NCBI RefSeq assembly: GCF_001428105.1
Contig: NZ_LMSJ01000034.1
Coordinates: 68,832 to 132,831, forward strand
DNA: 64,000 nt
Reading direction: 5' to 3'
Source: Paenibacillus sp. Soil766
GTDB taxonomy: Bacteria > Bacillota > Bacilli > Paenibacillales > NBRC-103111
Made by a program: the position numbers and the translations under genes. Of this stretch, positions 11,896-34,185 are shown piece after piece (position 1 is the stretch's first letter; each line of letters begins with the position of its first letter). The notes below the pieces were generated by a model, which was not told the origin of the DNA, did not search any database, and saw only the letters and a program-made list of their open reading frames with translations.

Positions 11896-13296
11896 TTAAT
11901 TCAATACTTTAACCGTTCCGAGTGTATAGCGACCATCGTTTCGTCTTCCATCATTGGCAAATTCCACTTCGGGTTTACCCGTCTGCGGATTAAGTATAGC
12001 AGCATTGAGGGTGTAGTTACCTGACGGAAGGTTTGCCGGGATCGGCAACGTGTCAGATACCATGCTAGAGCCAGGAAGCCACTCACGTATATCCAACTTG
12101 GTTCGATTGCTTGAAACAATTTCACCTTTAGCATTGGTCAGTGATAGCTCTAATGGCCAACTAAAGTAAAAGGGAGCTACACCTCTATTGATAATGCTAA
12201 GTTTAACAAGTAGTGATTTACCAGCACGGATTTCCTTTTCGTGGGACTCCTTGGCGATTACAAACCGATATCCGATTGTCTTGAGAAATCGGTCAATATT
12301 CGGTTGAAGTCGACCGCCGAAAGGCTCAAGCGTAGGGGCACTCGGACCAAGCCAGCTTACATGTGTCAGCTTCGCTTGTAATAAGGTTTCCTCAATATGA
12401 GCGTCATTAAGATAATTGCCATCTGGCGTAAACTCGCCACCGCTGGGAGCTGATTTCCAAAAATCAGGCATTGCAGGCTGGTCATTCTGAGTTAACCAAG
12501 ATGTGTAGCCATTCGTAACCCATTTAAGGAAGCCGTCTATCGTTGACTTACGCGAGCCGAAAGCGTCATTAAATAACCCCAGATTATGGTTCAGTGCAAT
12601 GTCATGCGGTCTGCGCATCATCACTCGTTTGTGATCGAAGTACGTTAAATAATGTTGAACATAGAGATCAGTCACTGCTTCTTGAGGAAATGTGATTGGA
12701 TTCTTCCCTTCATTCATGGTATGCCACTCACCCCAGTGACCTATGCTGCCTAATTCGATAAAAGCGATGAAAGGATCGTCATTATAACGATTCCCTAACG
12801 CTTTGATCAGTCGTTCGTGATTGGCAAGTAGGACTGGGTTCGTATAGTCAGGGCTGAAGCCTTTCCCATAATCAAGATCATACCAATCGCCTTTTTCACC
12901 GATTTCTTTAAATAACCAGTCTGGAATATCTTTGTGATTCGTATCTCTCGGATAATCGAGTATGACTCTGAAAATGAGAGAGACACCCTTTGCTTTCCAC
13001 AAAGCAAATTGGAATTTTTTTTCGATTGCATCGAAGTCATACTTGCCCTTTTCTGGCTCGATGTCAGCCCAAGTCATATTGGCATAGGCTAGTCGAAAGG
13101 GTTGCTTCGCTTCGTTGTATTTGGCATCTATGACAAATCCCATAAAAGGATTGTTCAGAACGTGATCTGTTTCTAAGGGATAGTAAGAGATTCGGTTAAT
13201 AGCTTCTGTTGCGTGAAGCTGTCTATAACCTAATAAGCTTATTATTCCTATAAGAAGAGCCAATGTAATAAGGAAGAGACGTCGTGGCGTATTCAT
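11896..13296 (-). CDS. Secreted DUF4832 glycoside-hydrolase-like protein
   Basis: About 466 residues with an N-terminal membrane anchor or signal peptide (RRLFLITLALLIGIISLLGY). The segment NPFMGFVIDAKY, WADIEPEKGKYDF and the later GHWGEWH motif are typical of DUF4874/DUF4832 proteins, which have a TIM-barrel glycosidase-like N-terminal part. The last 110 residues form a beta-sandwich (LLVKLSIINRGVAPFYFSW). The ATG at 13296 has GGGGAGG upstream; the longer frame from 13353 does not. It is transcribed divergently from the pel operon with only 253 bases between starts, which suggests, but does not prove, that it acts on the Pel polysaccharide. No biochemical activity can be assigned from sequence. 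Confidence 0.75.
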   Translation of the reverse strand: MNTPRRLFLITLALLIGIISLLGYRQLHATEAINRISYYPLETDHVLNNPFMGFVIDAKYNEAKQPFRLAYANMTWADIEPEKGKYDFDAIEKKFQFALWKAKGVSLIFRVILDYPRDTNHKDIPDWLFKEIGEKGDWYDLDYGKGFSPDYTNPVLLANHERLIKALGNRYNDDPFIAFIELGSIGHWGEWHTMNEGKNPITFPQEAVTDLYVQHYLTYFDHKRVMMRRPHDIALNHNLGLFNDAFGSRKSTIDGFLKWVTNGYTSWLTQNDQPAMPDFWKSAPSGGEFTPDGNYLNDAHIEETLLQAKLTHVSWLGPSAPTLEPFGGRLQPNIDRFLKTIGYRFVIAKESHEKEIRAGKSLLVKLSIINRGVAPFYFSWPLELSLTNAKGEIVSSNRTKLDIREWLPGSSMVSDTLPIPANLPSGNYTLNAAILNPQTGKPEVEFANDGRRNDGRYTLGTVKVLN

Positions 13297-13394
13297 TATA
13301 GTTTCCTCCCCGCAGGATTCGTCTTTAAAATCGTAACAGACAAGGGATTGCATTACAATATGGAGTTTGTAAGAATTTGTAGAAAATCACTAAC

Positions 13395-13481: not shown

Positions 13482-13549
13482 GGTAGTTTTAAATCTGTTT
13501 CATGGTGTCGAATGGAAAAATAGACAAATCTATCCTGGAGGAAACCGGT

Positions 13550-15742
13550 ATGAAAGTGTTAATTACAGGAGGATATGGATTCATTGGGTCTTTTGTCGCG
13601 GAACGCTTTTATAAAGAAGGCTATGAAATATACATCATTGATAATTTATCAACTGGTAATAAGCAGAATATAGATTTTAATCATAAGAGTTATGTATTAG
13701 CTGTAGAGGATCGGAAGTGTGAGGAGATCTTTCGCAGCAACCGGTTCGATACTGTCGTTCATCTAGCGGCGCAAGTGAATGTAAAGATCTCAGTTGAAGA
13801 CCCCATATTAGATTCGAAATCAAATATTCTCGGACTTTCCAATATGTTAACTTTATCCCAAAAATACAACGTAAATAAGTTTATTTTTGCATCCTCGGCT
13901 GCTGTTTATGGAAACAATGATGAAATTCCCCTGCCTGAATCCGCTGATTGTGATCCAATTTCTCCTTATGGTATTAATAAATGGCTCGGTGAGACCTATT
14001 GCAAGAAATGGAAGGAACTATACGGATTGGATACACTTTGCTTCCGTTTTTCTAACGTTTACGGCCCAAGGCAAGGAAGTGTCGGTGAAGGTGGCGTTAT
14101 TTCCATATTCATGGAAAGAGTGATGAAGGGCAAAGAACTTGTTGTGTATGGCGATGGCGGCCAAAGCAGAGACTTCATTTTTGTAGAAGATGTGGCAGAT
14201 GCGATCTATCGCTCGTCTTATTCCACACTAAGTGGTGTCTATAATCTATCTACAAGTACGGAAAATTCAGTGAATGATTTAATTAGTGCGCTTCGAAGCA
14301 TGCATGGCCCGGTAACCATTGTGAACGCAGAACAACGTCAAAGTGATATTTATCGTTCCAAATTAGACAACAGTCGTATCTCATTTGATTTGGATTGGGT
14401 TCACAAATATACCTTTGAGCAAGGGATTGCCAAGACGTATGACTGGTTCCTACAACAGCATTACTTGCAAGAGCAAAAGAGAGTTAAACAATCGAAACCA
14501 CATCGATTTTCCAAACTAACTCCAATTATACGTACGATGATGCCGTTCGCTGAAAATGTATTTGTTTTTGGAATTACAGCATGGTTTAGTCTACAGCTCA
14601 AAGTCAGTTTATCTGATTTTATCGATATTAGAGTTATTTATATTATTTTGCTCGGCATTCTATATGGTAATCGACAATCCATGCTTGCTGTAGGGATGTC
14701 AACTGCACTATATATGTATGAGCAACTTAACAATGGTAGAGAATTAATCTCCTTATTCTATGATCCTGACTTTTTCTTTCATCTCGCTGTCTATTTGTTT
14801 ATTGGGTTAGTTGTTGGATATGCGGTTGAACGGAAAAACACGACACTTGAATCGAAGAAGCAAGAATTCGAAACGCTATCGGAGAAGCATGAATTCTTAA
14901 CTGAAGTATTTAAGGAGACTCGCCAGGTGAAGGAGGAGCTCCAGCAGCAAATCATGAATAACGGAGACAGTTTTGGAAAGATTTACTCGGTTATCAAAGA
15001 GCTGGAAAGTCTGGAGCCAGAGAAAATTTTTACTTCGACGGTTAGTGTTGTAGAATCCCTCATGAAATCACAAGCGGTGACGATCTACACGGTAAATAAA
15101 TACGGCAGTTACTTGCGTCTATTAGCAAAGTCGAACAGTACGCATTTTGAAGCGGGCAAATCGATAAAGGTGGAAGATTCGCCATATATCCAAACCCTGC
15201 TAGAAGAGAAAAAGCTCTTTGTTAACAAAAGCTTGCAGGGAGGCATTCCGTTACTTGCAGCCCCTGTTATTAATCAAGGCAAAGTGGTTGCTGTTATTTC
15301 TGTTTATTCAATGAAATTCGAAAACTTTACGTTGTATCACCAAAATCTATATAAAATTATGATTGATCTAATCTCTTCGTCTCTTTCAAGAGCACTTTCG
15401 TATGTGGAAGCGACATCTAATCAGAGATATATGGATGGAATGCCAGTTTTGAAACCTGAGGTCTTCGCGGATATACTAGCAAGTAAACAACTTGCCAATG
15501 TGAAGCACGGTGTCGAGTATATGTTGCTTACACCTGTCGATACGTTTGATTTTTCAGATGACATGCCGCAGAAGGTTTCCAAATTTTTACGGGAGACGGA
15601 TTATTTGGGTATGAGTAAAGAAGGTAAGTTAGTCGTGCTACTCTCTAATTCCAGTCAAGAGGAAGCCTCCTTCGTACTAAACCGTTTTGAGCAAAATGGC
15701 ATTTACATGCGCATGGTCGAAGAGGAGTTTAGCTATGCTTGA
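13550..15742 (+). CDS. pelD: UDP-sugar 4-epimerase fused to PelD-type c-di-GMP receptor
   Basis: A 730-residue fusion. Residues 1 to about 305 are an extended SDR epimerase: NAD motif GGYGFIGS, LAAQVNV, a catalytic YxxxK in SPYGINKWLGE, and the FSNVYGPRQ region. It probably makes a UDP-N-acetylgalactosamine-type donor. From about 330 there are several membrane helices, a coiled coil, a GAF domain (about 490-620) and a degenerate GGDEF domain. The latter keeps an RxxD I-site, RETD at 681-684, while the GGDEF position reads KEGKL, so it should bind c-di-GMP without making it, as PelD does. The ATG at 13550 has GGAGG 8 bases upstream. First gene of the pel operon; it overlaps pelE by 8 bases. 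Confidence 0.85.
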   Translation: MKVLITGGYGFIGSFVAERFYKEGYEIYIIDNLSTGNKQNIDFNHKSYVLAVEDRKCEEIFRSNRFDTVVHLAAQVNVKISVEDPILDSKSNILGLSNMLTLSQKYNVNKFIFASSAAVYGNNDEIPLPESADCDPISPYGINKWLGETYCKKWKELYGLDTLCFRFSNVYGPRQGSVGEGGVISIFMERVMKGKELVVYGDGGQSRDFIFVEDVADAIYRSSYSTLSGVYNLSTSTENSVNDLISALRSMHGPVTIVNAEQRQSDIYRSKLDNSRISFDLDWVHKYTFEQGIAKTYDWFLQQHYLQEQKRVKQSKPHRFSKLTPIIRTMMPFAENVFVFGITAWFSLQLKVSLSDFIDIRVIYIILLGILYGNRQSMLAVGMSTALYMYEQLNNGRELISLFYDPDFFFHLAVYLFIGLVVGYAVERKNTTLESKKQEFETLSEKHEFLTEVFKETRQVKEELQQQIMNNGDSFGKIYSVIKELESLEPEKIFTSTVSVVESLMKSQAVTIYTVNKYGSYLRLLAKSNSTHFEAGKSIKVEDSPYIQTLLEEKKLFVNKSLQGGIPLLAAPVINQGKVVAVISVYSMKFENFTLYHQNLYKIMIDLISSSLSRALSYVEATSNQRYMDGMPVLKPEVFADILASKQLANVKHGVEYMLLTPVDTFDFSDDMPQKVSKFLRETDYLGMSKEGKLVVLLSNSSQEEASFVLNRFEQNGIYMRMVEEEFSYA

Positions 15743-16664
15743 GTGGGTGATGCTACTTTACATGGCGCTGTGTACGGTCGTCATCGGATATCGGCATCGA
15801 CGTGACAAGAGAGAAGCTGTGGTACGGATCGTGCTTGTGGTTGGATTTCCTATTGTTGGATTTATGTTGCCAGCTTTTCGCACGGAGCGTTGGCACCAAC
15901 GTAGTGACTCTCGCCATGAAAGAGCGAGAAGCGAATTATTCGAAGATATTCTTGTCGAGAAAGCGACACTGACGAATATTGTAAGTAAATTGGAAACCGA
16001 AAAGGAAATGAACATTGTTCCCTTAGAGGAAGCGCTACTCGTCAATGATTTATCCACGAGACGCCGAGTTATGATCGATTTGTTGAAGCAAGACTCGTTG
16101 GATTACTTGGAAGTTCTGCAGATGGCTGTCAGCAACGAGGACACAGAAACATCGCATTATGCCGTCAGTGCGATCATGGAAGTGAAGCGCAAAATTGTTA
16201 TTAATTTACAAGAGTTGGCTGTGAAATTCGAGGAGAATAAGCGGGATGCACATGTGCTTCTTGCTTACTCTGAACTATTAAAGTCCTATATGCGCAGTGG
16301 ATTTCTTGATGAACGGACCAGAATTAAATATAGCTACACCTATTCGAATGTGTTGAAATTGTTGATCGAGGTTGCTCCAGAATCTGCGGAAGCTTATGCC
16401 GATAAGATTAAAACAGATCTTGATTTGGAGGAGTTTGCAGAAGCAGAAGAAACCGCGCAAATGTATCTAAAGCAATTTCCACTATACGAGGATGCTTATC
16501 TCAGTCTGATTAATGTTTACTATACGATGCGAGCGATCGACAAATTAAAGTTGACATTGATGCAATTAAGACAATCTCCCATCCGTTTATCGAATCAGGC
16601 ATTAACAGTCGTAAGGTTCTGGTCAGAGGAGAAGGTTGATGAAAAAAGTAGGTCTCAAACGTAA
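15735..16664 (+). CDS. pelE: PelE-like membrane/TPR protein
   Basis: 309 residues. Two short membrane helices at the N-terminus (WVMLLYMALCTVVIGY and IVLVVGFPIVGFMLPAF) are followed by a cytoplasmic all-helical region with TPR-like periodicity (for example AEETAQMYLKQFPLYEDAYLSLINVYYTM in family style). PelE is the scaffold that links PelD, PelF and PelG in the Pel synthase complex. The start is the ATG at 15735, which overlaps the end of pelD and has AGAGGAG 8 bases upstream; the longer upstream frame is not used. Identification rests mainly on position and architecture, because PelE is poorly conserved. Confidence 0.75.
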   Translation: MLEWVMLLYMALCTVVIGYRHRRDKREAVVRIVLVVGFPIVGFMLPAFRTERWHQRSDSRHERARSELFEDILVEKATLTNIVSKLETEKEMNIVPLEEALLVNDLSTRRRVMIDLLKQDSLDYLEVLQMAVSNEDTETSHYAVSAIMEVKRKIVINLQELAVKFEENKRDAHVLLAYSELLKSYMRSGFLDERTRIKYSYTYSNVLKLLIEVAPESAEAYADKIKTDLDLEEFAEAEETAQMYLKQFPLYEDAYLSLINVYYTMRAIDKLKLTLMQLRQSPIRLSNQALTVVRFWSEEKVDEKSRSQT

Positions 16665-18459
16665 TGTTTACATCATTCTAATTGGCATTTTATTATTGGC
16701 TGTTGCGGTACAAATTACCAATTCTCAATTTGTTCTGAAGTTCAACCGAAACAGTACGGAAAATGGCATTCTGAAAGGAATGAACGCTTCCGTTGTGCAG
16801 GTTCAGACTACTGGCAAGTCATATTGTGTTGTTTATGACAGTACAGACGAATTCAGTAATAAGCTAAAGACGCAAACAGAGTATGTATTGGGTTATTTGA
16901 AGAAGCCCCTTCAGGTATTCGATATCAGCACAACAACATTGCAGTTCAATGCATGCCAAGTTGTTATTTCGACGCTTGTTAACATGGCTATGCTAGGGAA
17001 TCTAGACGAACTAGCGCAGTATGTGAAGCAAGGTGGTTATGTATTTCAAGAAGCGACTCCTATGAAGGGAGATGCATTTTATCGGTTATATCGCAAATTA
17101 GGTATTGTGAATGCAGGTGAGGGACGTGAGGTACAAGGCATTCATCTAACCTCCAATGTTCTACTTGGAGAGAACAATTTAGTGATTGACGATCCCTTCA
17201 TTATTAATTCAGTCATGACAGTTGAGCTCGATCAGAAGAGTAGGGTTTTAGTGAAATCAGCAGGTGGCTTACCTATGCTGTGGGATTATACGTATGGAAA
17301 AGGCAAATTCATGGTATTTAACGGGACGATGCTGCAGGAGAAAATAAATCGTGGGCTTCTTGCAGGAGCACTTAGCATGCTGGAACCTATATTCGTTTAC
17401 CCGATTTTCAATTCCAAGATTATGTATATCGATGACTTTCCAGCTCCAATTGCCACTGAAGTAGATCCGATTATTTATGATGAGTATCAAAAAACGAGGC
17501 CTGCCTTTTTTAAAGATATTTGGTGGCCTGATATGCTTGCCGTGGCGAAGAAGAACAATATCAAATATACAGCGGTACTCATTGAATCTTATCAGAATAG
17601 GGTAGAGCCTCCATTTGATTCTCCGACAGATAAGGATTCGAAAGGGCTCATCACGTATGGAAGAGAAGTCTTGAAGAGTGGTGGTGAAATCGGCCTGCAT
17701 GGCTATAATCATCAAGCGTTTACGCAAAGTCAAGAAGTAGCGGATGCGTTTGAGTATACACCATGGGATTCGATAGAGAATATGATCGGTGCTACGAAGG
17801 AAGCTGTGGATTTCGCTCAAAAAGCGTTTCCTAGTTATTCGATGGTATCCTATGTTCCTCCATCAAATGTGCTTAGTGTAGAAGGAAGAGAAGCGTTGAA
17901 GAAGGGGTGGCCGACACTAGCGGTTATTGCTTCTTTATACCCGGAAGATGGAAGCAATCTTGCCTATGTTCAAGAATATCGCATTGCAGAAGATGGCATC
18001 GTAGAGATGCCGAGGGTTACTTCTGGCTATGTTTCAGGTAATTTTGATCGGTGGGTATCTGCGAATACAATCACAACACATGGTATTTTTTCCCATTTCA
18101 TTCATCCCGATGATGTCTACTCTGAGGATCGTAATCATGGTTTAACTTGGGATAAGATGTATAAAAGCTTCTCGGAGATGCTTGATCGTATTGAACGTAC
18201 TTATCCTTGGCTTAGGGCGATGACTTCATCGGAGGCTGCGCTAGATATGCAGCGAGAGCAAGCCAGTCAAGTAAACATACGAATAGAAGGAAAGGTGCTT
18301 TACGGTAGTATCGCACCTTTTCACAACCGTGCTTTCTTTATTGCTAGAATGGACCATAAAATTGGCAAACTTCATGGCTGTAAAGTTGAAAAAATAGATA
18401 CGAATACGTATTTAATCACGGCGAATAGTAGTGAATTTGAAATTGAATTGGGTGGATGA
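16639..18459 (+). CDS. pelA: PelA-type polysaccharide deacetylase (DUF2194)
   Basis: 606 residues with one N-terminal membrane anchor (VYIILIGILLLAVAVQI). The N-terminal half has a flavodoxin-like arrangement as in DUF2194 proteins, and the C-terminal half is a carbohydrate-esterase-4-like domain. The metal and catalytic motifs are present: YIDDFPAPI (Asp 265 and 266) and LHGYNHQ (His 354 and 358). It should deacetylate the N-acetylated Pel polymer outside the membrane. The glycosidase domain of Gram-negative PelA is absent, which matches Gram-positive pel clusters where only the deacetylase portion is kept. ATG at 16639 follows GAGGAGAAGG; overlaps pelE by 26 bases and pelF by 4. Confidence 0.85.
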   Translation: MKKVGLKRNVYIILIGILLLAVAVQITNSQFVLKFNRNSTENGILKGMNASVVQVQTTGKSYCVVYDSTDEFSNKLKTQTEYVLGYLKKPLQVFDISTTTLQFNACQVVISTLVNMAMLGNLDELAQYVKQGGYVFQEATPMKGDAFYRLYRKLGIVNAGEGREVQGIHLTSNVLLGENNLVIDDPFIINSVMTVELDQKSRVLVKSAGGLPMLWDYTYGKGKFMVFNGTMLQEKINRGLLAGALSMLEPIFVYPIFNSKIMYIDDFPAPIATEVDPIIYDEYQKTRPAFFKDIWWPDMLAVAKKNNIKYTAVLIESYQNRVEPPFDSPTDKDSKGLITYGREVLKSGGEIGLHGYNHQAFTQSQEVADAFEYTPWDSIENMIGATKEAVDFAQKAFPSYSMVSYVPPSNVLSVEGREALKKGWPTLAVIASLYPEDGSNLAYVQEYRIAEDGIVEMPRVTSGYVSGNFDRWVSANTITTHGIFSHFIHPDDVYSEDRNHGLTWDKMYKSFSEMLDRIERTYPWLRAMTSSEAALDMQREQASQVNIRIEGKVLYGSIAPFHNRAFFIARMDHKIGKLHGCKVEKIDTNTYLITANSSEFEIELGG

Positions 18460-19898
18460 AGAATATGCGCATTTGTATCATCGCCGAAGGCTCATATCCT
18501 TATGTGACCGGTGGGGTTTCCAGTTGGATTCATTCTTTGATAACCAATATTCCGGAGCATGAATTTGTCATATTCACAATCGGAGCTTTCGAGAAGCAGA
18601 GGGGGCAATTTAAATACAAATTGCCGTCTAATGTGGTCGAGGTAAAAGAAATATTTCTTGATGCTTACATGCGTGAATCGGGAGAATGGGGGCATCGGTT
18701 TCGATTAACAGCCAGTCAGCAAGTTTCGTTTCAAGCCTTGCTTGGAGGGATTGGCCAAGTGGAATGGGCAGATCTGTTTCATTTGCTGAGAACGAAGCAA
18801 TTTCGAGTAGCAGCGGATTTTCTAATGAGCAAAGATTACTTTGATTTGTTGGTTGCGTTGTGCAAGGAGAGGTATCCTCAAATTCCATTTACGGAAATGT
18901 TTTGGACAGTTCGTTCTATGGTCCTCCCTTTGTTCTTATCCATTCGTCATGAGATACCCAAGGCCGACATCTATCACAGTGTTTCCACAGGTTATGCGGG
19001 TGTGATTGGAGCTTTGGCTAAGTACCTATACAATAAACCATTCTTGGTAACGGAGCATGGGATTTATTCACGAGAACGAGAAGAAGAGATAATTAAAGCC
19101 GGCTGGGTGAAAGGGTATTTCAAAGATTTATGGATCGAGTATTTCTACCGTTTGTCTGAGTGTGCTTATGGCAGTGCTGACGAGGTTATTACCTTATTTA
19201 ATCGAAATCGAGAAATCGAAATTGAATTGGGCTGCAACCCAGATAAAATAAAAATTATTCCAAATGGTGTCAATCTTGCAGATTACGAAGAAGTGGTGCA
19301 GGAGAAGCGTCCAGATGATGCGATGATTCGCATTGGCGCAATCGTGCGTGTAGTTCCGATTAAAGATATCAAAACAATGATTCAGAGCTTCGCACTTGTG
19401 AAGAGGGAAGTGCCGAACACGGAGTTATATATCATGGGACCTTCCGAAGAAGATGAGGAATACCTTATCGAGTGCCAACAACTTGTCGATACATTGCAAG
19501 TGGAAGATGTCATTTTTACAGGTGAAGTGCGAATTAAAGAGTATTTAGGTCGCATGGATATGCTAGTGCTCTCTAGTGTAAGTGAAGGCATGCCATTGGC
19601 GATTCTAGAAGGAATGGCTAGCGGCAAGCCCTTTGTCGCCACGGATGTGGGAAGTTGTCGCGAGCTGCTCCATGGCAGGGAAGACGATATTGGACCGTGC
19701 GGGATAATCGTTCCCGTGATGCATTATGACCAGATGGCCACTGCGCTCATCAAGCTCTGCAAGAATAAAAAGCTGCGAGAAGAGATGGGGAGAAACGGAC
19801 TGGAGCGGGCTGGGAAACATTATACGAGGAAGCAATTTATTGAAGGGTATCGAAGTTTGTATAATTCGTATCAGGAGGTGACGACATGGCGGGGATAG
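18456..19898 (+). CDS. pelF: PelF glycosyltransferase (GT4)
   Basis: 480 residues, cytosolic. The N-terminus MRICIIAEGSYPYVTGGVSSW and the following DUF3492 region are characteristic of PelF. The C-terminal GT-B half has EVITLFNRN, IIPNGVNL, and the E-x7-E motif in SEGMPLAILEGMASGKP. It polymerises the Pel backbone, using UDP-activated N-acetylated hexosamine. The first ATG at 18456 overlaps the pelA stop; ATG at 18465 has a better spaced GGTGG and may be the true start. The 3' end overlaps pelG by 13 bases, which indicates tight coupling. Confidence 0.93.
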   Translation: MKNMRICIIAEGSYPYVTGGVSSWIHSLITNIPEHEFVIFTIGAFEKQRGQFKYKLPSNVVEVKEIFLDAYMRESGEWGHRFRLTASQQVSFQALLGGIGQVEWADLFHLLRTKQFRVAADFLMSKDYFDLLVALCKERYPQIPFTEMFWTVRSMVLPLFLSIRHEIPKADIYHSVSTGYAGVIGALAKYLYNKPFLVTEHGIYSREREEEIIKAGWVKGYFKDLWIEYFYRLSECAYGSADEVITLFNRNREIEIELGCNPDKIKIIPNGVNLADYEEVVQEKRPDDAMIRIGAIVRVVPIKDIKTMIQSFALVKREVPNTELYIMGPSEEDEEYLIECQQLVDTLQVEDVIFTGEVRIKEYLGRMDMLVLSSVSEGMPLAILEGMASGKPFVATDVGSCRELLHGREDDIGPCGIIVPVMHYDQMATALIKLCKNKKLREEMGRNGLERAGKHYTRKQFIEGYRSLYNSYQEVTTWRG

Positions 19899-22800
19899 GA
19901 TTCGAGCTGAGGCGATTATTCGGAGGTCAGGGGCTATTAAATAGCTTTAGAGCTTATGCCTATTCATCAATGACGACGGTGGGGCCGATGATCTTGTGCA
20001 TGAGTACGATTGTATTTATGCAGAGATTCATGATAGTCGCAGATTCACCATACTTGGAACGTCAGCTTTTTCTCGCAACAGTTGTGTACTGCTTTATTTT
20101 CTCTGTACTCATTACAGGTGGTTTATCCATGATCGTGACAAGGTTTATTTCGGATATGATTTATCTAAAAAAGTATGAGCATCTGCTCTCTTCCTACTAT
20201 GGAGCAATTACAGTGGCGCTGCCGATAGGCTCGCTTGTTGCTTGGCTTTTTTTACGCAAAGTGACGGCAGGATTCGGATATAAAGCTGCGGCTTATTTGT
20301 TCTTCACTGAACTCATTGTTATTTGGGTGCAATCGGTTCATTTATCAGCATTGAAAGATTACAAAAGAATTGTTCGTAATTTTTGTTACGGTATTGTCAT
20401 TGCGATAGCGGGTTCATGGCTGCTTTTGACTTATACACCGTATAAGAGTGCAGCAGCAGTTCTTACGATGATGGATATTGGGTTTATGATCATTATGCTG
20501 TTGACTGCGTACCATTTTGAACAAAAATTCCCGAGGAAATCCAGTAAAGTTTACTTCGATTTTTTTACATATTTCCGGAAATATCCGTCATTATTTTTCA
20601 TTGGTACATTTTTTTACTCAGGCGTATATGTACATAGCTTCGTCTATTGGTTCAGTCCCTACCAAGAACAAATTGGAGGGCGATTTCTAATTTCTCCGTT
20701 CTATGATCTACCAGTCTTTTACGCCTATCTCACGGTTATACCCACGCTAGTTACATTTGTTGTTTCGGTGGAGACGACCTTTTATGATAAATTCCGAGGT
20801 TACTACGATAGAATATTGAATGGGGGAACGTTGCAAGAGATTACACGTGCCAAATTGGACATGCAACGAACTTTGATGCAAGAAGTCAGTTTTATGATGG
20901 AGGTTCAGCTTCTATTTACTGTCGTGTCACTTGCATTGGGCATTAAGCTGCTGACAATGCTTGGCTTTACCAATTCACAGCTCTACATATTCAATATTCT
21001 TGTTCTCGGATATTTTGTGTTCATCATGTCCTTTATTATTATGCTCATCATGCTTTATTTTGACGATCGAAGAGGAGTTCTTGCTGTAAGCAGTTTGTTT
21101 GTTGTTTTGAATGGTGTATTCACATACTGGTCGATGAATGCAGAAAATCATGGTTTAGGTATCTTTCTAGCAGCTTTTGTTTCACTGCTTTGCGCATTAA
21201 CCCGCTTAATTATGTATGTTAGAAATATAGATTACTATACATTTTGTGCACAACCAATTTCGGTTACGGTTCAAAAGAAATTACCCTTTTGGCGTCGTGT
21301 TAGAGCCAAATTAACTGTGACTACACTATTGATTACAGCAGTCGTGTTCCTTACTGCTTGTACCGATGAACAGGTGAAGGAATCGAACTCAGAGGGACCA
21401 TCTACGCTCTCCAATTTAACTCCGATCACTTCCAATGATAAGTTGGTAGAAGATAAGCGGCTATACCAACAAGACAAGGATACATCTGTTGATGCCCTTT
21501 ACGTGACGATCCTGCCGGAAAAGCGAGGCAAAGAGAATCCACTCTCTTGGTATGCCCTGAACCGGATCAAGGACCGAATGAATGAGGGCGATCTCAAAGT
21601 TATTGTACAGGAAGGTGCGGCTGACGGAAGTGGACCTAAATCCGGTATGTTCGGATATGCGAGTACAGAAAGCAACGGGAAAATCAGCTTGCGAGGAAAT
21701 ACTTCACGTTATGCGTCTCAACGTTCTTATAAAATTCGTTTGGAAGACCAAGCTGGTTTATGGCATGATCAGCGGACACTAAATCTAAACAAACACATTT
21801 TTGACTCCTCAAGATTACGTAATAAGTTAAGTTTTGACATTTTTGAGACGATCCCTAATATTACTAGCCTCAGAACTCAATTCGTTCATTTGTACGTCAA
21901 GGACTTATCAGAGGAGAAAGAGTCGGGGAAAGCTTTCGCGGATTATGGATTGTTTACACACGTTGAGCAGCCCAATGAGAAGTTTCTGAAGAGCCATTGG
22001 CTGGATCCGAATGGACAACTATACAAGGCTGTCTTGTTTGAGTTTTTCGAATATCCTGAAGCTCTTAAGTCCAAGACCGACCCTACGTACAATAAAGCGG
22101 AATTTGAGAAGCATTTGGAGATAGACGGTTATGAGGATCATGATAAGCTTTTGAAGATGCTCAAAGATGTAAACAATATGTCGATCCCTATTGATGAGGT
22201 GTTCGACAAGCATTTTGATCTCGATAATTATTTAACGTTTCTTGCAGCAAACATTTTGATGGATAATTTGGATACGGAAGCTCACAACTTCTATTTGTAC
22301 TCACCATTGAATTCCAACAAGTGGTACTTCCTACCATGGGATTATGATGGCGGATGGGAGTGGGGGCTTCAAGGTAACGTAATAAATACGAATCCTTCTA
22401 GTAACGGAATTAGCACGTATTGGGGAAGTGTTCTTCCCAACCGGTTTTTCCGAAGTGAAAAAAATGTGCAATTGTTGAAGGATAAAATTGACGAGCTCTA
22501 TGCAATGATTAATAATGATTCAGTTGCCAAACGGTTGCAAGATTACCGGGGGGTAGTCGAACCATTTATTAATAAAGCTCCTGATAATAGCTTCCTGCCC
22601 ATTCAGTTAAACAAATTAGACGAGGAGTTCAAAAGGATTGCTGGTGTTCCGCTTCGTGCGTTAGAACGATTTAACAAAGATATAGAGAAACCCAAGCCGT
22701 TTTTTTTAAATGAATTAAGTCAGCTTAACGGAAAATATCGATTTGAGTGGGAACCATCGTTTGATCTGCAAGGGGATGATTTAACCTATGAGTGGACATT

Positions 22801-23005
22801 GGCTAGAGACCCTGCGTTTAAGGATATTGTGCAGCAACAGAAAACTTTGAAGAATACTAGTGTAGAATTAAATAGCCTTAAGCCTGGTGAATATTTCTGG
22901 AAAGTGACTGTTCAAGATGCGAAAGGGCACCAACAAATCGCGTTTGATTATTATGAGACAGACGATGTGCCCTACTACGGAGTCAAAGCTATTGAGGTGA
23001 AGTAA
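19886..23005 (+). CDS. pelG: PelG transporter fused to CotH-kinase-like domain
   Basis: 1039 residues, more than twice the usual PelG length. Residues 1 to about 465 are PelG: GIGFELRRLF at the start and about 12 membrane helices of the polysaccharide-exporter type. After a basic linker (FWRRVRAKL) comes another hydrophobic segment ending in LTAC at Cys 492, which looks exactly like a lipoprotein signal peptide in the middle of the chain. A CotH-type domain follows (about 520-890) with SYKIRL, DNLDTEAHNFYLY (Asp 793) and LPWDYDGGW (Asp 819 and 821), the metal and catalytic positions of CotH kinases. A fibronectin/Ig-like domain ends the protein. The topology would put CotH outside the membrane. 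AGGAGG precedes the ATG. The frame is continuous. Confidence 0.9.
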   Translation: MAGIGFELRRLFGGQGLLNSFRAYAYSSMTTVGPMILCMSTIVFMQRFMIVADSPYLERQLFLATVVYCFIFSVLITGGLSMIVTRFISDMIYLKKYEHLLSSYYGAITVALPIGSLVAWLFLRKVTAGFGYKAAAYLFFTELIVIWVQSVHLSALKDYKRIVRNFCYGIVIAIAGSWLLLTYTPYKSAAAVLTMMDIGFMIIMLLTAYHFEQKFPRKSSKVYFDFFTYFRKYPSLFFIGTFFYSGVYVHSFVYWFSPYQEQIGGRFLISPFYDLPVFYAYLTVIPTLVTFVVSVETTFYDKFRGYYDRILNGGTLQEITRAKLDMQRTLMQEVSFMMEVQLLFTVVSLALGIKLLTMLGFTNSQLYIFNILVLGYFVFIMSFIIMLIMLYFDDRRGVLAVSSLFVVLNGVFTYWSMNAENHGLGIFLAAFVSLLCALTRLIMYVRNIDYYTFCAQPISVTVQKKLPFWRRVRAKLTVTTLLITAVVFLTACTDEQVKESNSEGPSTLSNLTPITSNDKLVEDKRLYQQDKDTSVDALYVTILPEKRGKENPLSWYALNRIKDRMNEGDLKVIVQEGAADGSGPKSGMFGYASTESNGKISLRGNTSRYASQRSYKIRLEDQAGLWHDQRTLNLNKHIFDSSRLRNKLSFDIFETIPNITSLRTQFVHLYVKDLSEEKESGKAFADYGLFTHVEQPNEKFLKSHWLDPNGQLYKAVLFEFFEYPEALKSKTDPTYNKAEFEKHLEIDGYEDHDKLLKMLKDVNNMSIPIDEVFDKHFDLDNYLTFLAANILMDNLDTEAHNFYLYSPLNSNKWYFLPWDYDGGWEWGLQGNVINTNPSSNGISTYWGSVLPNRFFRSEKNVQLLKDKIDELYAMINNDSVAKRLQDYRGVVEPFINKAPDNSFLPIQLNKLDEEFKRIAGVPLRALERFNKDIEKPKPFFLNELSQLNGKYRFEWEPSFDLQGDDLTYEWTLARDPAFKDIVQQQKTLKNTSVELNSLKPGEYFWKVTVQDAKGHQQIAFDYYETDDVPYYGVKAIEVK

Positions 23006-23007
23006 AT

Positions 23008-23715
23008 ATGGAGTTTCTAGGAAAAAAACTGCGCCATGAACTGAAATACTATATTCACCCTTATGAATATGTTACCTTGCGACAGCGTCTTGGTGCCATG
23101 CTTCAACTAGATGGAAATTCGGATGACAAGGAAGGGTATGGGATTCGCAGCTTATACTTCGACGGTCCTCAGAATCATTCTCTTTATGATAAAGTGAACG
23201 GAATCTTCGGTCGGCAGAAATTCCGTATTCGCATTTATAATGGTGAAGACCGGACCATCAAGTTGGAGAGAAAAAGCAAGTACGGGGATTACGTGTGCAA
23301 AGAGGCCGTTCGGCTCAGCAGAGATGAATATGATCGACTTTTAACAGGGGATATTTCCTTCTTGTTAGAGCAGAATCATCTATTGTTAAAAGATTTCTAT
23401 AGGGCGTTGCAAGGTGGTTACCAACCGGCAGTTATTGTGGATTATATGCGAGAAGCCTATGTGTATGAATTAGGGGATGTTCGTATTACTTTCGATAAAA
23501 TGTTGTCGGCAGGTATTAATTCTCATGATGTATTCGATCCCAATCTGGCCCTGACGGAAGCTCTTGATTCAACGAAAACCATTATGGAGATTAAGTACAA
23601 TGACTTTCTCCCTGAAGCAATTCGACTCATTGTAAGGCCTGAATCACATAACCGTTCAAGTATTTCAAAGTATGTCATTTGCCGCGAGATTGGCTATCGG
23701 CATTTTAGACCATAA
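23008..23715 (+). CDS. VTC-domain (polyphosphate polymerase-like) protein
   Basis: 235 residues forming a triphosphate-tunnel fold related to the catalytic domain of yeast Vtc4. Basic and acidic tunnel residues are visible in RHELKYYI, IRSLYFD, KFRIRIYNG, IKLERKSKYGDYV, VDYMREAYV, IMEIKYNDFLPEAIR and the final SKYVICREIGY. Family members make polyphosphate from nucleotide or are suspected of handling phosphate-rich substrates. The gene begins 3 bases after pelG-CotH with GAGGTGA as ribosome binding site, so the two are surely co-transcribed. VTC, DUF4956 and CotH genes are known to co-occur in bacteria; a role in supplying or modifying the CotH substrate is inferred. Confidence 0.85.
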   Translation: MEFLGKKLRHELKYYIHPYEYVTLRQRLGAMLQLDGNSDDKEGYGIRSLYFDGPQNHSLYDKVNGIFGRQKFRIRIYNGEDRTIKLERKSKYGDYVCKEAVRLSRDEYDRLLTGDISFLLEQNHLLLKDFYRALQGGYQPAVIVDYMREAYVYELGDVRITFDKMLSAGINSHDVFDPNLALTEALDSTKTIMEIKYNDFLPEAIRLIVRPESHNRSSISKYVICREIGYRHFRP

Positions 23716-23741: not shown

Positions 23742-24422
23742 ATGGGAGATTCGCTTAATTTTCAGGATGTCGTCAAGAAGAGCATCCTTCATTTGGAAGC
23801 ATTCCGCAATATTTCATACATCGATATACTCATGGGACTTGCTGTCTCATTCGGAATTGGTATGTTCATTTATTATATTTATCGGAAAACATTTCGCGGT
23901 GTCGTGTATAGTTATAACTACAATGTCACTTTTGTTCTGATGAGTATGATAACAACACTGATTATCATGACGATCAGCACGAATATCGTCCTTTCTCTCG
24001 GCATGGTCGGAGCTCTTAGCATTGTACGTTTCCGAACAGCGGTAAAAGATCCGCTAGATATCGTGTATATGTTCTGGGCAATTTCCGTTGGTATTGCGAC
24101 TGGGGCAAAGCTTTATCCTGTCTCATTGCTTGGTTCAGTCGCCATTGGGGCAGCTCTTTTGTTTTTGTCTAGGCGTAAAATAAGAGAACAGCCCTACCTA
24201 TTGATCATTCGTCATACAGACGAAGCTATAGGTGAGCTGCGTATAAGGTTAAGACAAATGAACTATAGTGTGAAATCGAAAACAGTCCGTAAAAATTTCA
24301 CGGAGTTGACTCTGGAGATGCGTCTACGTGATGATAATACGGCTTTCGTAAATGAGTTTTCTCGAATCGAAGGCGTCCAAGATGTATCCCTTATCAATTA
24401 TACAGGGGACTATGCACAATGA
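23742..24422 (+). CDS. DUF4956 membrane protein
   Basis: 226 residues. Four hydrophobic segments lie between about 25 and 145, with the conserved SLGMVGALSIVRFRTAVKDPLD signature (family block, about 85-106) that defines DUF4956. A soluble ferredoxin-like domain forms the C-terminus (YLLIIRHTDEAIGELRIRL region). Biochemical function is unknown; the family is a regular partner of VTC-type polyphosphate polymerases and CotH proteins, which is exactly the context here. It is the last gene of the pel operon and ends 10 bases before the end of a convergent gene with no hairpin between. Confidence 0.85.
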   Translation: MGDSLNFQDVVKKSILHLEAFRNISYIDILMGLAVSFGIGMFIYYIYRKTFRGVVYSYNYNVTFVLMSMITTLIIMTISTNIVLSLGMVGALSIVRFRTAVKDPLDIVYMFWAISVGIATGAKLYPVSLLGSVAIGAALLFLSRRKIREQPYLLIIRHTDEAIGELRIRLRQMNYSVKSKTVRKNFTELTLEMRLRDDNTAFVNEFSRIEGVQDVSLINYTGDYAQ

Positions 24423-29970: not shown

Positions 29971-31101
29971 ATGAGAATTTTCAGGAATTTACTACTGATT
30001 AGCCTCGGGTTGATTGGTACCTATGTGATTTATTATCTGATTCATTTTATGCAAGGAGACACGTTAAGTTTGCAGCGGCAACCGAGCAGCCAGTATGGTC
30101 AGACCATGCAAGTAACGGAAAATCGTCACCAGTTAATTGGATTTATTAACGATAAGCTCACGAGCAGACATGGCGTATCGACGAATCTACAGGATACAGA
30201 TCAGAAGAGTGCAGCAGCGTCAGGCCATGAAGTTTTGAGTGAATCCGCGGGACTCTTGATGCGGTACTATGCGCTAACCGGACAGAAAGATAAGTTTGAT
30301 GAGCAGTGGCAGCAAGCTAAGCTAGTATTTGATACCCCTTATGGCTTCAGCTATCGTTACAGTCCTAAACAGAATAAACAATATCCAATGAATGCGATTG
30401 TAGATGATTTGCGTATCATTCGGGCACTTGATGAAGCTTCTCATGCTTTTGAATCAAAGAGCTATAGGATGGAAGCCGAAGGATACGGAAAGCGAGTTTA
30501 TCAATATAATGTTGTGAATGGGCAAATGCGAGACTTCTATGATCCAACTTACCAACTGACAAATTCATTCCTAACCTTGTGCTACATAGATGCTGCATCT
30601 TTGGAGCTTATACCGGTTTCTCGAAAAAAGAAGGCGACCCTTGAAGCTAGCATGCTCCAAATTGCCCAAGAAGGATACTTGTCAGATTCGTTTCCATTTT
30701 ACCAAACTCGCTATGATTTCAACAGCAAGAATTACCAATCGGAAGGCATTAACACTGTAGAATCCTTGCTGACTATTCTAAACCTAGCAGAAGTTAAACT
30801 AGCACAGCCAGCCAGCATTCAATATATCAAAGCTCAGGTGAAATCAGGAACGTTATACGGTCAATATGATCGGAATGGGAAACCATTGAATGAAGTAAGA
30901 TCAACAGCTATTTATGCCATATCGGCCATGATTGGATCGGTCATCAAGGATCAAGAGTTGTATGCAGATAGTATTCTCCAAATGAATGAATTTCAAAATC
31001 ATGATCCGCAGAGCCAGCTGAATGGCGGCTTCGGAGATGTCAATGCCGTGCAGGCTTATTCCTTCGACAATTTGATGGCACTGTTAGCCTACTCGTATTG
31101 A
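29971..31101 (+). CDS. ydaJ: YdaJ-like glycoside hydrolase family 8 protein
   Basis: 376 residues with an N-terminal membrane anchor (NLLLISLGLIGTYVIYYLI). The GH8 features are the likely acid Glu in LSESAGLLMRYYALTG and the Asp in MNAIVDDLRIIRAL, plus an alpha/alpha barrel helical pattern and the final NAVQAYSFDNLMALLAYSY. BcsZ and YdaJ proteins of this family cleave the polymer made by their own operon. It is the first gene of an operon resembling Bacillus subtilis ydaJKLMN. The start ATG has AGGAG 12 bases upstream, rather far. Confidence 0.8.
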   Translation: MRIFRNLLLISLGLIGTYVIYYLIHFMQGDTLSLQRQPSSQYGQTMQVTENRHQLIGFINDKLTSRHGVSTNLQDTDQKSAAASGHEVLSESAGLLMRYYALTGQKDKFDEQWQQAKLVFDTPYGFSYRYSPKQNKQYPMNAIVDDLRIIRALDEASHAFESKSYRMEAEGYGKRVYQYNVVNGQMRDFYDPTYQLTNSFLTLCYIDAASLELIPVSRKKKATLEASMLQIAQEGYLSDSFPFYQTRYDFNSKNYQSEGINTVESLLTILNLAEVKLAQPASIQYIKAQVKSGTLYGQYDRNGKPLNEVRSTAIYAISAMIGSVIKDQELYADSILQMNEFQNHDPQSQLNGGFGDVNAVQAYSFDNLMALLAYSY

Positions 31102-31121
31102 TCAGAAAGGAGTGCGATCCT

Positions 31122-32630
31122 ATGTGGAACCATCGGTATCTCCCAATGTTGTTGGGCAAAATGTCCCCAGCCGCTTTCGCTGCCATCATGGTTTTCCTGA
31201 TTACAGTGATCGCATTATTTACGCCTCCCTATATTGGGATGGCCGACAATGGAGATTATTTTCGAATTCTGTACAGTAACGGATTGTATTTCAATGATCC
31301 GAATTATACGAACCATTACCTCGGCTACTTCGTCAAAAATTATGGTGTGTATCAGTTTTATAATGAGAATGGTGCTACCTTATTTTCTTCACAATCTATG
31401 TTTATTAAAGCATCCCTTCTTATCAACCTACTCTTTCATGACTCTCAATTGTACGATATTCGTTTTCAAGCAGGGATGTACCTCGTTTTATATGTAGCTG
31501 CCATCTACTTATTAGTAGAGGCGCTTACTTGGAAAATGTCCAAGAAAAGAGGCTATCTCATTGCGCTTCTCAGCATTTTTATTTTAGGAGATACGGGATA
31601 TACGGCCTATTTTAATTCCTTTTATAGTGAGAGTATTGTGCTCATTATGACGATTTTCATGGTTGCCGCGGGCATATTGCTTTATCGGAAACGATATAAC
31701 GATTATTGGATGTTAGCGTTATTTGTTGTTAGTGCTATCTTTTTAACCATGAGTAAGCAGCAAAATGCTCCTGTAGGAATGATTATTGCAATTTTTGGCG
31801 TTTTCTTCATCTATATTCGTAAGACGAAGTCGTATCGCATCATTACGGCAAGTTTACTTATTGCAGTTCTTGGAGTAGGTGTTGGCAGCTATGTACTTAT
31901 TCCTCAAGGATTTGTGAATATCAATAAATACCATGCGATGACGCGCGGTGTGATCATGGGCTCAGTAGATCCTGAGAAGACACTTGAAAGCTTTGACATT
32001 GACAAACAATTTGCAGTTCTTGGTGAGACCCTATACTACGACCCCTACTCTGCAACAGCTGTGGATTCCGAGCTCATGCAGGAAAAGTTCTACAATAAAT
32101 ATAGTGTGGCGTCGATTCTCGGTTACTACTTCTTACATCCGGAACAAGCCGGTAAAATGCTCAATTTGGCTGCACAAGATGGATTTAGTATTAGGCCGCA
32201 TGCGCTTGGGAATTATGAGGCATCGACGGGTAAAGCATTTGGTTCTCAAACAATCTTTTTCTCAAGCTACAGTTTGTTGAAGGATTGGCTAGCTCCAAAA
32301 ACATTTGGATTTGTGGTCCTCTGGGCGCTCATTATCATGGGGCTATATATGCCGTCCTTTGTAAAAGCCATTAGACTTCGACAGCCTAGGAATGTGCTCA
32401 GGTTACCTTTAATTCTTATGATGATTGTGATCGGTCTATCTGGGATTTTCGTTTCCATTGTCGGGGCTGGGGATGCAGACCTTGCCAAGCATGAATTTTT
32501 ATTCACTTTAGTTTTCGATCTTGTTTCACTACTTACAATTTGTGATTTAATTGCCAAACGATTATGGATTCAAGAAGTTGAAGATATCACGGACAATAAG
32601 GCTATGCAAGGAGGTGTTCACCATGCATAA
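31122..32630 (+). CDS. Polytopic membrane protein, GT-C/WsfD-like
   Basis: About 502 residues with roughly 11-12 hydrophobic segments. An acidic first extracytoplasmic loop, GMADNGDYFRILY, is the layout of GT-C glycosyltransferases that use lipid-linked sugars. The overall pattern resembles proteins named WsfD in glycan clusters, though I hold that name only loosely. It may decorate the polymer or a lipid-linked intermediate. The start at 31122 has AAAGGAG 9 bases upstream; the extra eight codons from 31098 are not supported. It lies between ydaJ and ydaL, a position not occupied in the B. subtilis operon. Confidence 0.6.
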   Translation: MWNHRYLPMLLGKMSPAAFAAIMVFLITVIALFTPPYIGMADNGDYFRILYSNGLYFNDPNYTNHYLGYFVKNYGVYQFYNENGATLFSSQSMFIKASLLINLLFHDSQLYDIRFQAGMYLVLYVAAIYLLVEALTWKMSKKRGYLIALLSIFILGDTGYTAYFNSFYSESIVLIMTIFMVAAGILLYRKRYNDYWMLALFVVSAIFLTMSKQQNAPVGMIIAIFGVFFIYIRKTKSYRIITASLLIAVLGVGVGSYVLIPQGFVNINKYHAMTRGVIMGSVDPEKTLESFDIDKQFAVLGETLYYDPYSATAVDSELMQEKFYNKYSVASILGYYFLHPEQAGKMLNLAAQDGFSIRPHALGNYEASTGKAFGSQTIFFSSYSLLKDWLAPKTFGFVVLWALIIMGLYMPSFVKAIRLRQPRNVLRLPLILMMIVIGLSGIFVSIVGAGDADLAKHEFLFTLVFDLVSLLTICDLIAKRLWIQEVEDITDNKAMQGGVHHA

Positions 32631-34185
32631 GCAGCGATGGCAACGAACCATTTTCTTCCTATTATGTTGTCTGTTACTGATGGTTTGCTATCCGGTAACT
32701 ACTTCTGCTAATCAACCCGAGAAGACTTCTGTTCTCCTCGTTTATGATAGCTTAGCTAAAGGAACCGCTAAAGAGGGGAATGTCGAGGCTGTACAACGTT
32801 TACTGGCTTCTTTCAGCGTTCAAGTGACGGTGACATCTTATGACAGTTACGAAAAAGGAACGCTCCTCAAGTTCAGTAAAGTCATTTCAATGCGCAATTT
32901 AGCTGATATGAGTCCAACAATCGATTTTTTTAATCAGGATATGAATGAGTACGTAGGGGAATATATGCATATAGGGTATGGACTCCCTGCTACGATTCGA
33001 CAGGATATGGATTTGGAAATTGACATGTTAGATCAAGACAGCCTACACCTTGCAATTGGACAATTCTCCCAAAGCTCAATTACGGCCAGTAATATTGTCT
33101 ATATTACAAAATTTACGGGAACTTCCTTTGGTGAGATAACCTCAGAGAGGAAGAAGATAACTTCACCATATGGTGTTCTTCATGGTAAATATACCTATAT
33201 TCCCTACATGGTAAGTGGGAATTTAAGCGAGCAAGCAGCGGCCTATGTCCTTAAGGACTGGTTGGCTATTAAGACGATAAGCCATAATTATGTATTGTTG
33301 AATGAGATTTATCCCTTTTCAGATCTCAACATGCTCAGTGAGCTGGCAGATCGCTTATATGAAGGCGGGATTCCTTTTATCGTCAGTGTACAGCCTGTAC
33401 TTACTAATTTAGATTTCCCCGCAACACAGCGATATTTGGAAGCCATCAAACATATACAATCGCGAAACGGAAGTATTGTTGTGAATGCCCCCGTCGTAAA
33501 TTCAACAATTAGTCAGGACATTACGATATTAAAATCACAAATGAGCTCCTTTCTGAATGCTCTGTCTGCGTATGGAATCGTTCCCTTGGGAATTGGAACT
33601 GAGTTGTATTGGACATATGACCAACATTACATTGGAAATGGCTTATCTTTTTTTCAATCAGGCATTATTTTTCCGAATCAGCGATTGATGTATCGAGCAC
33701 AAACTTCCACATCAAGTGCGTTTACTTCGGCCATGTATACCATACAAGCAAAGGAAATTAGCAAGTATGCCGTGTCTTCTAAAATGATGGATCCCTTGCC
33801 GATGAACACTGCATTTGTTTATCCTTTTCCTGTAGATCGCAAAGGATTAGAAGCGACTATCGACACTATATTTTCAAGCTGGACAACCTTCGCGGATTAC
33901 AAGAGACAAGAGCATCGTGTAAGAACGGACACCAATGAAATGAGCTCGCAGAGCGGCCACCTGCAAATCAACGGTCAAGCTATCGCATTAAACAATAAAG
34001 TCGCTGAAATCGATTCTGATCATGCGTATGTGCAAGAAGTGAAGAAGAGCTTTACAACCTTATTCTCGGTGCAAAATAACATTTTCATTGTTCTTATTTT
34101 GACCACACTACTTATCTTTATGGTATTCCTCATTATTGGGTATCGCATGTATAAACGAAAATTCATGCAACAGGAGAGGCCATAA
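32623..34185 (+). CDS. ydaL: YdaL-like DUF2334 protein
   Basis: 520 residues: signal peptide (RTIFFLLCCLLLMVCYPVTTSA), a large extracytoplasmic domain, and a C-terminal membrane helix (FIVLILTTLLIFMVFLIIGYRMY). The DUF2334 core is seen in SVLLVYDSLA, LSELADRLYEGGIPFIVSVQPV and SSFLNALSAYGIVPLG. DUF2334 is related to polysaccharide deacetylases, but the usual Asp pair reads LLNEIYPF here and the His-bearing motif reads IVVNAPVVN, so the catalytic metal site seems lost. The ATG at 32623 overlaps the upstream stop and follows AAGGAGGTG. Perhaps a binding or structural subunit. Confidence 0.8.
   Translation: MHKQRWQRTIFFLLCCLLLMVCYPVTTSANQPEKTSVLLVYDSLAKGTAKEGNVEAVQRLLASFSVQVTVTSYDSYEKGTLLKFSKVISMRNLADMSPTIDFFNQDMNEYVGEYMHIGYGLPATIRQDMDLEIDMLDQDSLHLAIGQFSQSSITASNIVYITKFTGTSFGEITSERKKITSPYGVLHGKYTYIPYMVSGNLSEQAAAYVLKDWLAIKTISHNYVLLNEIYPFSDLNMLSELADRLYEGGIPFIVSVQPVLTNLDFPATQRYLEAIKHIQSRNGSIVVNAPVVNSTISQDITILKSQMSSFLNALSAYGIVPLGIGTELYWTYDQHYIGNGLSFFQSGIIFPNQRLMYRAQTSTSSAFTSAMYTIQAKEISKYAVSSKMMDPLPMNTAFVYPFPVDRKGLEATIDTIFSSWTTFADYKRQEHRVRTDTNEMSSQSGHLQINGQAIALNNKVAEIDSDHAYVQEVKKSFTTLFSVQNNIFIVLILTTLLIFMVFLIIGYRMYKRKFMQQERP

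Follow-up and report, generated by a model that had tools for sequence, protein, structure and literature searches.

A pelG-cotH gene fusion with a conserved internal lipobox: a predicted precursor of a Pel exporter and a surface lipoprotein

In the window, a stretch of 64,000 nucleotides from Paenibacillus sp. Soil766, the exporter gene pelG is joined to a cotH gene in one open frame (19886..23005, plus strand, 1039 aa), and the junction holds a lipobox that is invariant in 50 fusions amid freely evolving surroundings, a pattern that favours continued lipidation and cutting. We interpret the product as a two-protein precursor, in which one chain would be cut at the internal lipobox to give a 12-helix PelG and a lipid-anchored CotH outside the cell; from the comparisons set out below, we put the probability of this reading at about three in four. 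The initial annotation had left it undecided whether the junction segment acts as a thirteenth membrane helix or is still processed: The same pattern of conservation speaks for processing and makes a permanent tether less likely.

The features of the fusion gene all lie on the plus strand. The PelG part (residues 1–457, 19886..21256) matches Pfam PF16933 over residues 1–453 and covers the whole profile (1–452 of 452, E 1.6e-133, 446 bits). Its AF2 model contains 12 confident transporter helices, most of them near pLDDT 90, in a MOP-superfamily fold for which Foldseek returned MATE, WzxE and MurJ. The loops between the helices hold 26 lysines and arginines on the inside versus 6 on the outside, and the positive-inside rule accordingly predicts an N-in/C-in topology. 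With PelG in this orientation, a basic-hydrophobic segment can insert with its lipobox outside, like that of any lipoprotein. The segment that follows comprises a basic, presumably cytoplasmic n-region of hypervariable sequence and variable length (residues 458–467, 21257..21286), whose basic stretch extends past 467 as far as K475, a hydrophobic h-region or would-be thirteenth helix (468–488, 21287..21349) and the lipobox L489-T490-A491-C492 (21350..21361), with predicted Lgt lipidation at Cys492 and a predicted LspA cut between 491 and 492. A disordered linker succeeds it (493–522, 21362..21451), in which most columns are saturated except L520 and E522. In the AF2 model, helix 468–488 directly before LTAC is of low confidence and not packed on the transporter, and pLDDT lies below 50 in the segments 450–467, 469–479 and 487–516. 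The C-terminal part is modeled confidently with a CotH fold: Its kinase-fold domain (600–902, 21683..22591; PF08757, E 6e-57) matches B. cereus CotH (5JD9/5JDA) both at the sequence level and in Foldseek, with a TM-score of 0.80 by target length. A PKD/FN3-like β-sandwich near the C-terminus (962–1018, 22769..22939) is indicated by strands in the model and by weak matches (PF22352 below threshold, E 2.4e-4; PKD of KIAA0319L, E 1.1e-5).

The fusion is real and long-standing in its group. A continuous frame from PelG into CotH with LTAC retained at the junction had been proposed from the window alone, and both statements stand: The 1039 codons contain no internal stop, and full-length homologues occur in dozens of species. 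Full-length, stop-free fusions are present in 10 of 104 family genomes and in 31 of 395 order genomes; one further order genome (G324) is fused too but was matched only over residues 224–1038. The search for such fusions in other genomes that had been advised thus proved fruitful, and it additionally yielded over 30 named loci from Paenibacillus, Cohnella, Brevibacillus, Rummeliibacillus, Psychrobacillus, Sporosarcina, Ureibacillus and Bacillus. All these fusions share roughly 50–82% identity with the window protein. These named loci place the fusion in Caryophanaceae (Planococcaceae) and Bacillaceae, outside the order. An assembly or frameshift artefact is ruled out because the full-length frame recurs in dozens of independent genomes, and the stop or frameshift at the junction that would have spoken against the initial annotation is consequently absent. 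A wide spread across the phylum is likewise ruled out, as a phylum-wide sample of 398 genomes held no fusion other than that in the window's genome itself; G123, also sampled, is split. In L063 (Paenibacillus cisolokensis), the pel cluster lies in several frames (PelD, PelG, CotH), probably as a result of draft-assembly frameshifts.

The junction was analyzed in an alignment of 50 non-redundant fusions that share less than 95% identity with each other (lowest pairwise value 46%). Between P457 and D523, Cys492 is the sole fully invariant column (50/50). Position −1 is alanine in 36, glycine in 12 and serine in 2 sequences, leucine occupies position −3 in 46 of the 50, and a basic residue at 475 is kept equally often (46/50). 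When the tree is built with the junction left out, parsimony assigns no change to Cys492, four to position −3 and nine to position −1, all of the latter within A/G/S, whereas the other junction columns are saturated with a mean of 24.6 changes. A PROSITE-style, PS51257-like lipobox core matches at Cys492 in all 50 proteins and elsewhere in two of them, and the stricter G+LPP core with its N-terminal anchor left off matches 46. A chance lipobox-like string is ruled out by 50/50 conservation within a saturated region; at the level of sequence, the lipobox of the fusions is demonstrably under selection. The features of a lipoprotein signal are present, namely cysteine at +1, a small residue at −1 and hydrophobic and basic regions upstream, but the signal sits at residues ~458–492 and not at the N-terminus of the primary product.

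A free lipoprotein CotH could also arise by separate translation from an internal start before the signal peptide, with the fused chain as a minor product. Some members do carry ATG, GTG or TTG codons in the n-region, but many lack any start codon there, only one of the 50 combines a start with a Shine-Dalgarno-like motif of at least 4 bases (AAGG not counted), and the frame remains fused in every member of the clade, which makes this route highly improbable. With 49 of 50 lacking a start plus clear Shine-Dalgarno motif, an internal translation start is ruled out for nearly all members, and therefore the signal peptide exists only within the long chain.

More weight has to be given to a chain that stays whole, with a true thirteenth helix, Cys492 lipidated or not, and the kinase domain held covalently to the exporter. 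The continuous frame and the predicted topology permit this arrangement, and lipidation without cutting would still conserve the cysteine. However, a plain helix anchors CotH without requiring either the cysteine or a small residue at −1, yet each is kept in 50 of 50 fusions, so that the retention of both is best explained by Lgt lipidation and LspA cutting; the strict requirement at −1 argues for cutting and not for lipidation alone. Against an uncut tether stand also the saturated sequence of the helix, its lack of packing in the AF2 model and a tandem free lipoprotein CotH of the same clade in G308, which suggests that the domain works untethered. Taken together, we regard the tether as unlikely.

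Cleavage of the precursor would proceed as follows: The ribosome makes a single chain, and its PelG part would enter the membrane as an exporter of 12 helices whose C-terminus faces inside. The segment 458–492 would then insert, acting as an internal signal peptide of type II, and take the C-terminal half across the membrane, Lgt would add a diacylglyceryl group to Cys492, and LspA would cleave between Ala491 and Cys492. The predicted products are PelG, which would retain the former signal peptide as a loose thirteenth helix, and, on the outer face, a CotH protein of 548 residues held by its lipid anchor. PelG and CotH would thereby be supplied 1:1 at the same spot, where the surface CotH would assist Pel production. 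Lipidation, cleavage, surface location and the reason for the fusion are what we infer; if the chain is cut, kinase and exporter do not stay joined for good, and co-synthesis is what links them.

The established substrates of Lgt and LspA carry their signal peptides at the N-terminus. The window's genome encodes one Lgt and two LspA-family proteins, and the junction shares with their known lipoprotein substrates the charged n-region, the hydrophobic h-region, the lipobox L-[ST]-[AG]-C and a flexible linker after the cysteine; unlike in those substrates, the signal is internal, behind 12 transmembrane helices. That the Lgt/LspA pathway serves here as an internal processing protease, separating a multi-spanning exporter from a surface kinase-fold lipoprotein and thereby fixing their 1:1 supply and co-location, appears probable to us, slightly less so than the precursor itself. 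Viral polyproteins cut by host signal peptidase offer an analogy, since there, too, internal signal peptides are the points at which one chain is divided while it inserts into the membrane; the present case differs in being bacterial, in the predicted use of the type II (lipoprotein) signal peptidase and in yielding two cellular proteins. In the literature covered by our search, which includes few subscription journals, no protein with several membrane spans is described as having an internal lipobox. If the two-protein reading is true, the lipoprotein machinery is able to turn the product of one gene into both a transporter and a surface enzyme, and the fusion would be a clean, testable cellular bacterial polyprotein. 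The usual search for lipoprotein signals is confined to protein N-termini; in that case, standard N-terminal signal-peptide predictors would overlook any lipoprotein that forms the C-terminal half of a membrane protein.

The fusion has, as judged from two gene trees, a single origin, because both domain trees unite the fused genes in one clade: All 50 fused sequences group together in the CotH tree (support 99) and the fused PelG sequences do so in the PelG tree, beside the split ones (support 100). Both are quick trees whose support is SH-aLRT only; repeated independent fusions are ruled out by the one clade in each. The sole free CotH within the fused clade is the tandem duplicate beside the G308 fusion, with a lipobox of its own. 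At this locus (L119, G308:C60:132683-137660), the free gene directly follows the fusion, is its sister in the tree and represents a duplicate of the fusion's CotH half that has a separate start and the lipobox LASC. The fusions of Rummeliibacillus, Sporosarcina, Psychrobacillus and Ureibacillus (L051–L053, L056, L057, L059) nest inside Paenibacillaceae sequences, which suggests horizontal transfer.

Eleven order genomes carry pelG and cotH separately, side by side. The split relatives have a canonical lipoprotein CotH directly after pelG, which agrees with the earlier idea that a lipoprotein cotH gene had fused to pelG. Nearly all split Pel-locus relatives checked show the lipobox at the N-terminus of the separate CotH (VSGC, LTAC, FAGC, LAGC, MAGC or VAGC); the exception is the distant G785/L120, whose CotH, like that of the distant G076/L072, lacks a lipobox and has a plain hydrophobic membrane anchor, so that the CotH group as a whole does not depend on lipidation. 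In G123, a TAG stop closes pelG, and the leader of cotH comes next in the same frame, an arrangement that illustrates how the fusion could have arisen. The selected internal lipobox also points to a place on the outer face, as a lipoprotein, for the CotH accessory of Pel clusters in this large group of Bacillota. In a split sister group (L110, L114, L115, L116; genomes G123, G215, G227, G150), each Pel operon has two tandem CotH lipoprotein genes, which form two well separated clades. Three split clusters hold an extra gene between cotH and VTC (coding-strand coordinates L068 11136-12746, L069 13391-15010, L071 12594-13997); it encodes ~470–540 aa with an N-terminal membrane segment and is absent from the fused clusters.

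Both the fold and the catalytic aspartate pair of the CotH kinase family are found in the CotH half. D796 (22271-22273), N801, D819 (22340-22342) and D821 (22346-22348) are invariant in 49 of 49 sequences, and D796 and D819 correspond to D228 and D251 of B. subtilis CotH by alignment and by an equal spacing of 23 residues. Replacement of either D228 or D251 inactivates the B. subtilis kinase (PMC7821199), and an active CotH enzyme is therefore plausible from these invariant equivalents. The initial annotation had singled out D819 and D821 for mutation: D819 holds as the equivalent of D251, and the second aspartate with mutational support is D796, which it had not named. The window protein thus shares fold and both aspartate positions with the spore-coat kinases, but these sit in the mother cell and spore coat, whereas the CotH of the window is predicted to be exported and membrane-anchored, carries the additional C-terminal β-sandwich and has a putative activity. 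In S. intermedius, the separate-gene CotH is described as an extracytoplasmic accessory factor, and deletion of the cotH-like SIR_1594 lowered Pel and aggregation and abolished neither (PMC12345266).

For the function of the exported domain, phosphorylation of the polymer or its carrier, as suggested by the initial annotation, is a hypothesis. To our knowledge, ATP is not expected outside the cell. This general consideration, together with a fold alignment that shows only ~20% identity to B. cereus CotH, is compatible with a pseudokinase or a structural factor that helps to assemble the exporter and has no enzymatic role. We consider such a factor possible but doubtful, because the four residues invariant in 49/49 are unlike a decayed active site. 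The same lack of ATP motivates a different proposal, in which VTC and DUF4956 would make polyphosphate and pass it outward and the surface CotH would use it instead of ATP to attach phosphate to Pel, its lipid or a matrix protein. CotH, VTC and DUF4956 co-occur in Pel loci, whether fused or split, and in four loci that lack the Pel set, and the basic residues of the VTC fold are conserved; the window's genome, however, contains another VTC-DUF4956 pair but no CotH apart from the Pel-locus one, so that this additional pair does not need CotH. Moreover, the available text of PMC12345266 does not list deletion of the S. intermedius VTC homologue among those changing aggregation or Pel level, and we rate the polyphosphate donor as rather improbable, below the pseudokinase. 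Both readings are compatible with processing; our ratings of them concern function and do not compete with the precursor.

The fusion gene sits in a pel operon in which PelG is accompanied by PelD, PelE, a PelA-type deacetylase and PelF. On the plus strand, PelD with an N-terminal SDR/epimerase domain and GAF (13502..15742; GGYGFIG and YGINK motifs kept) is followed by a PelE-like protein (15735..16664), assigned by position and conservation in all complete loci and with weak TPR-type Pfam matches only; its longest frame starts at a TTG (15687-16664), and the ATG at 15735 is the likelier start. Next come a DUF2194/DUF2334 protein (16636..18459), likely the PelA-type deacetylase (PelADA) by domain match and by a gene order as in PMC7112168, and the glycosyltransferase PelF (18456..19898; NF038011, E 6.4e-120), whose gene overlaps the start of pelG by 13 nt. 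CotH, a VTC (polyphosphate-polymerase-like) protein (23008..23715; PF09359, E 4.1e-36) and a DUF4956 membrane protein (23742..24422; PF16316) are contiguous with pelDEADAFG. The VTC protein matched Vtc4 structures, with conserved tunnel-fold basic residues. DUF4956 has a mean column identity of 73%, a near-invariant LGMVGALSIVRFRTAxKDP motif and a C-terminal domain that appears MgtC/ACT-like (AF2 and Foldseek, weak matches only). VTC and DUF4956 lie immediately downstream in every fused locus read far enough except G308, where the second CotH intervenes, and the PelD-to-PelF set lies upstream in those fused loci read upstream. A divergent DUF4832 gene (11896..13353, minus strand; PF16116), in the same place in many fused loci, is likely a glycoside hydrolase accessory; DUF4832 is a known pel-cluster accessory (PMC7112168).

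In streptococci and clostridia, CotH, the polyphosphate polymerase, DUF4956 and DUF4832 are separate accessory genes (Whitfield et al. 2020, PMC7112168). The published Gram-positive pelDEADAFG cluster (PMC7112168; S. intermedius, PMC12345266) thus resembles the window in gene set, order and SDR-containing PelD, with CotH directly after the pel genes and then VTC and DUF4956; cotH is separate there and fused to pelG here, and the SDR motifs of the window look intact. The main texts of both papers, in their available form, do not mention a pelG-cotH fusion or an internal lipobox, nor does that of PMC7112168 mention Paenibacillus: The separate-gene cluster is already published, and within the literature covered we found no report of the fusion or of its conserved internal lipobox. 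The fusion locus is a natural system for asking what CotH, VTC and DUF4956 do for a biofilm polysaccharide.

The SDR domain of the window PelD, with its intact motifs, resembles the Brevibacillus type described as possibly active, and SDR-PelD is a second case, beside pelG-cotH, of an enzyme joined to a Pel membrane component within this operon. Further along the window (29971-32630), two adjoining frames (376 aa and a 510-aa membrane protein) have zero Pfam matches, and a frame with a weak DUF2334 match (32551-34185) lies downstream of both. Elsewhere in the window's genome, which has no CotH besides the Pel-locus copy, the second VTC gene overlaps, at L075 (G000:C25:31704-32384), another DUF4956-like gene with a related GAFSIIRFRSAPGDPKD motif. 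PMC12345266 states that the CotH-VTC-DUF4956 trio is not found outside the Pel locus; the trios without a canonical Pel set in G527 (L121), G129 and G124 (L117 and L118) and G076 (L072) do not fit this statement. These Pel-less trios adjoin other transport or envelope-type genes.
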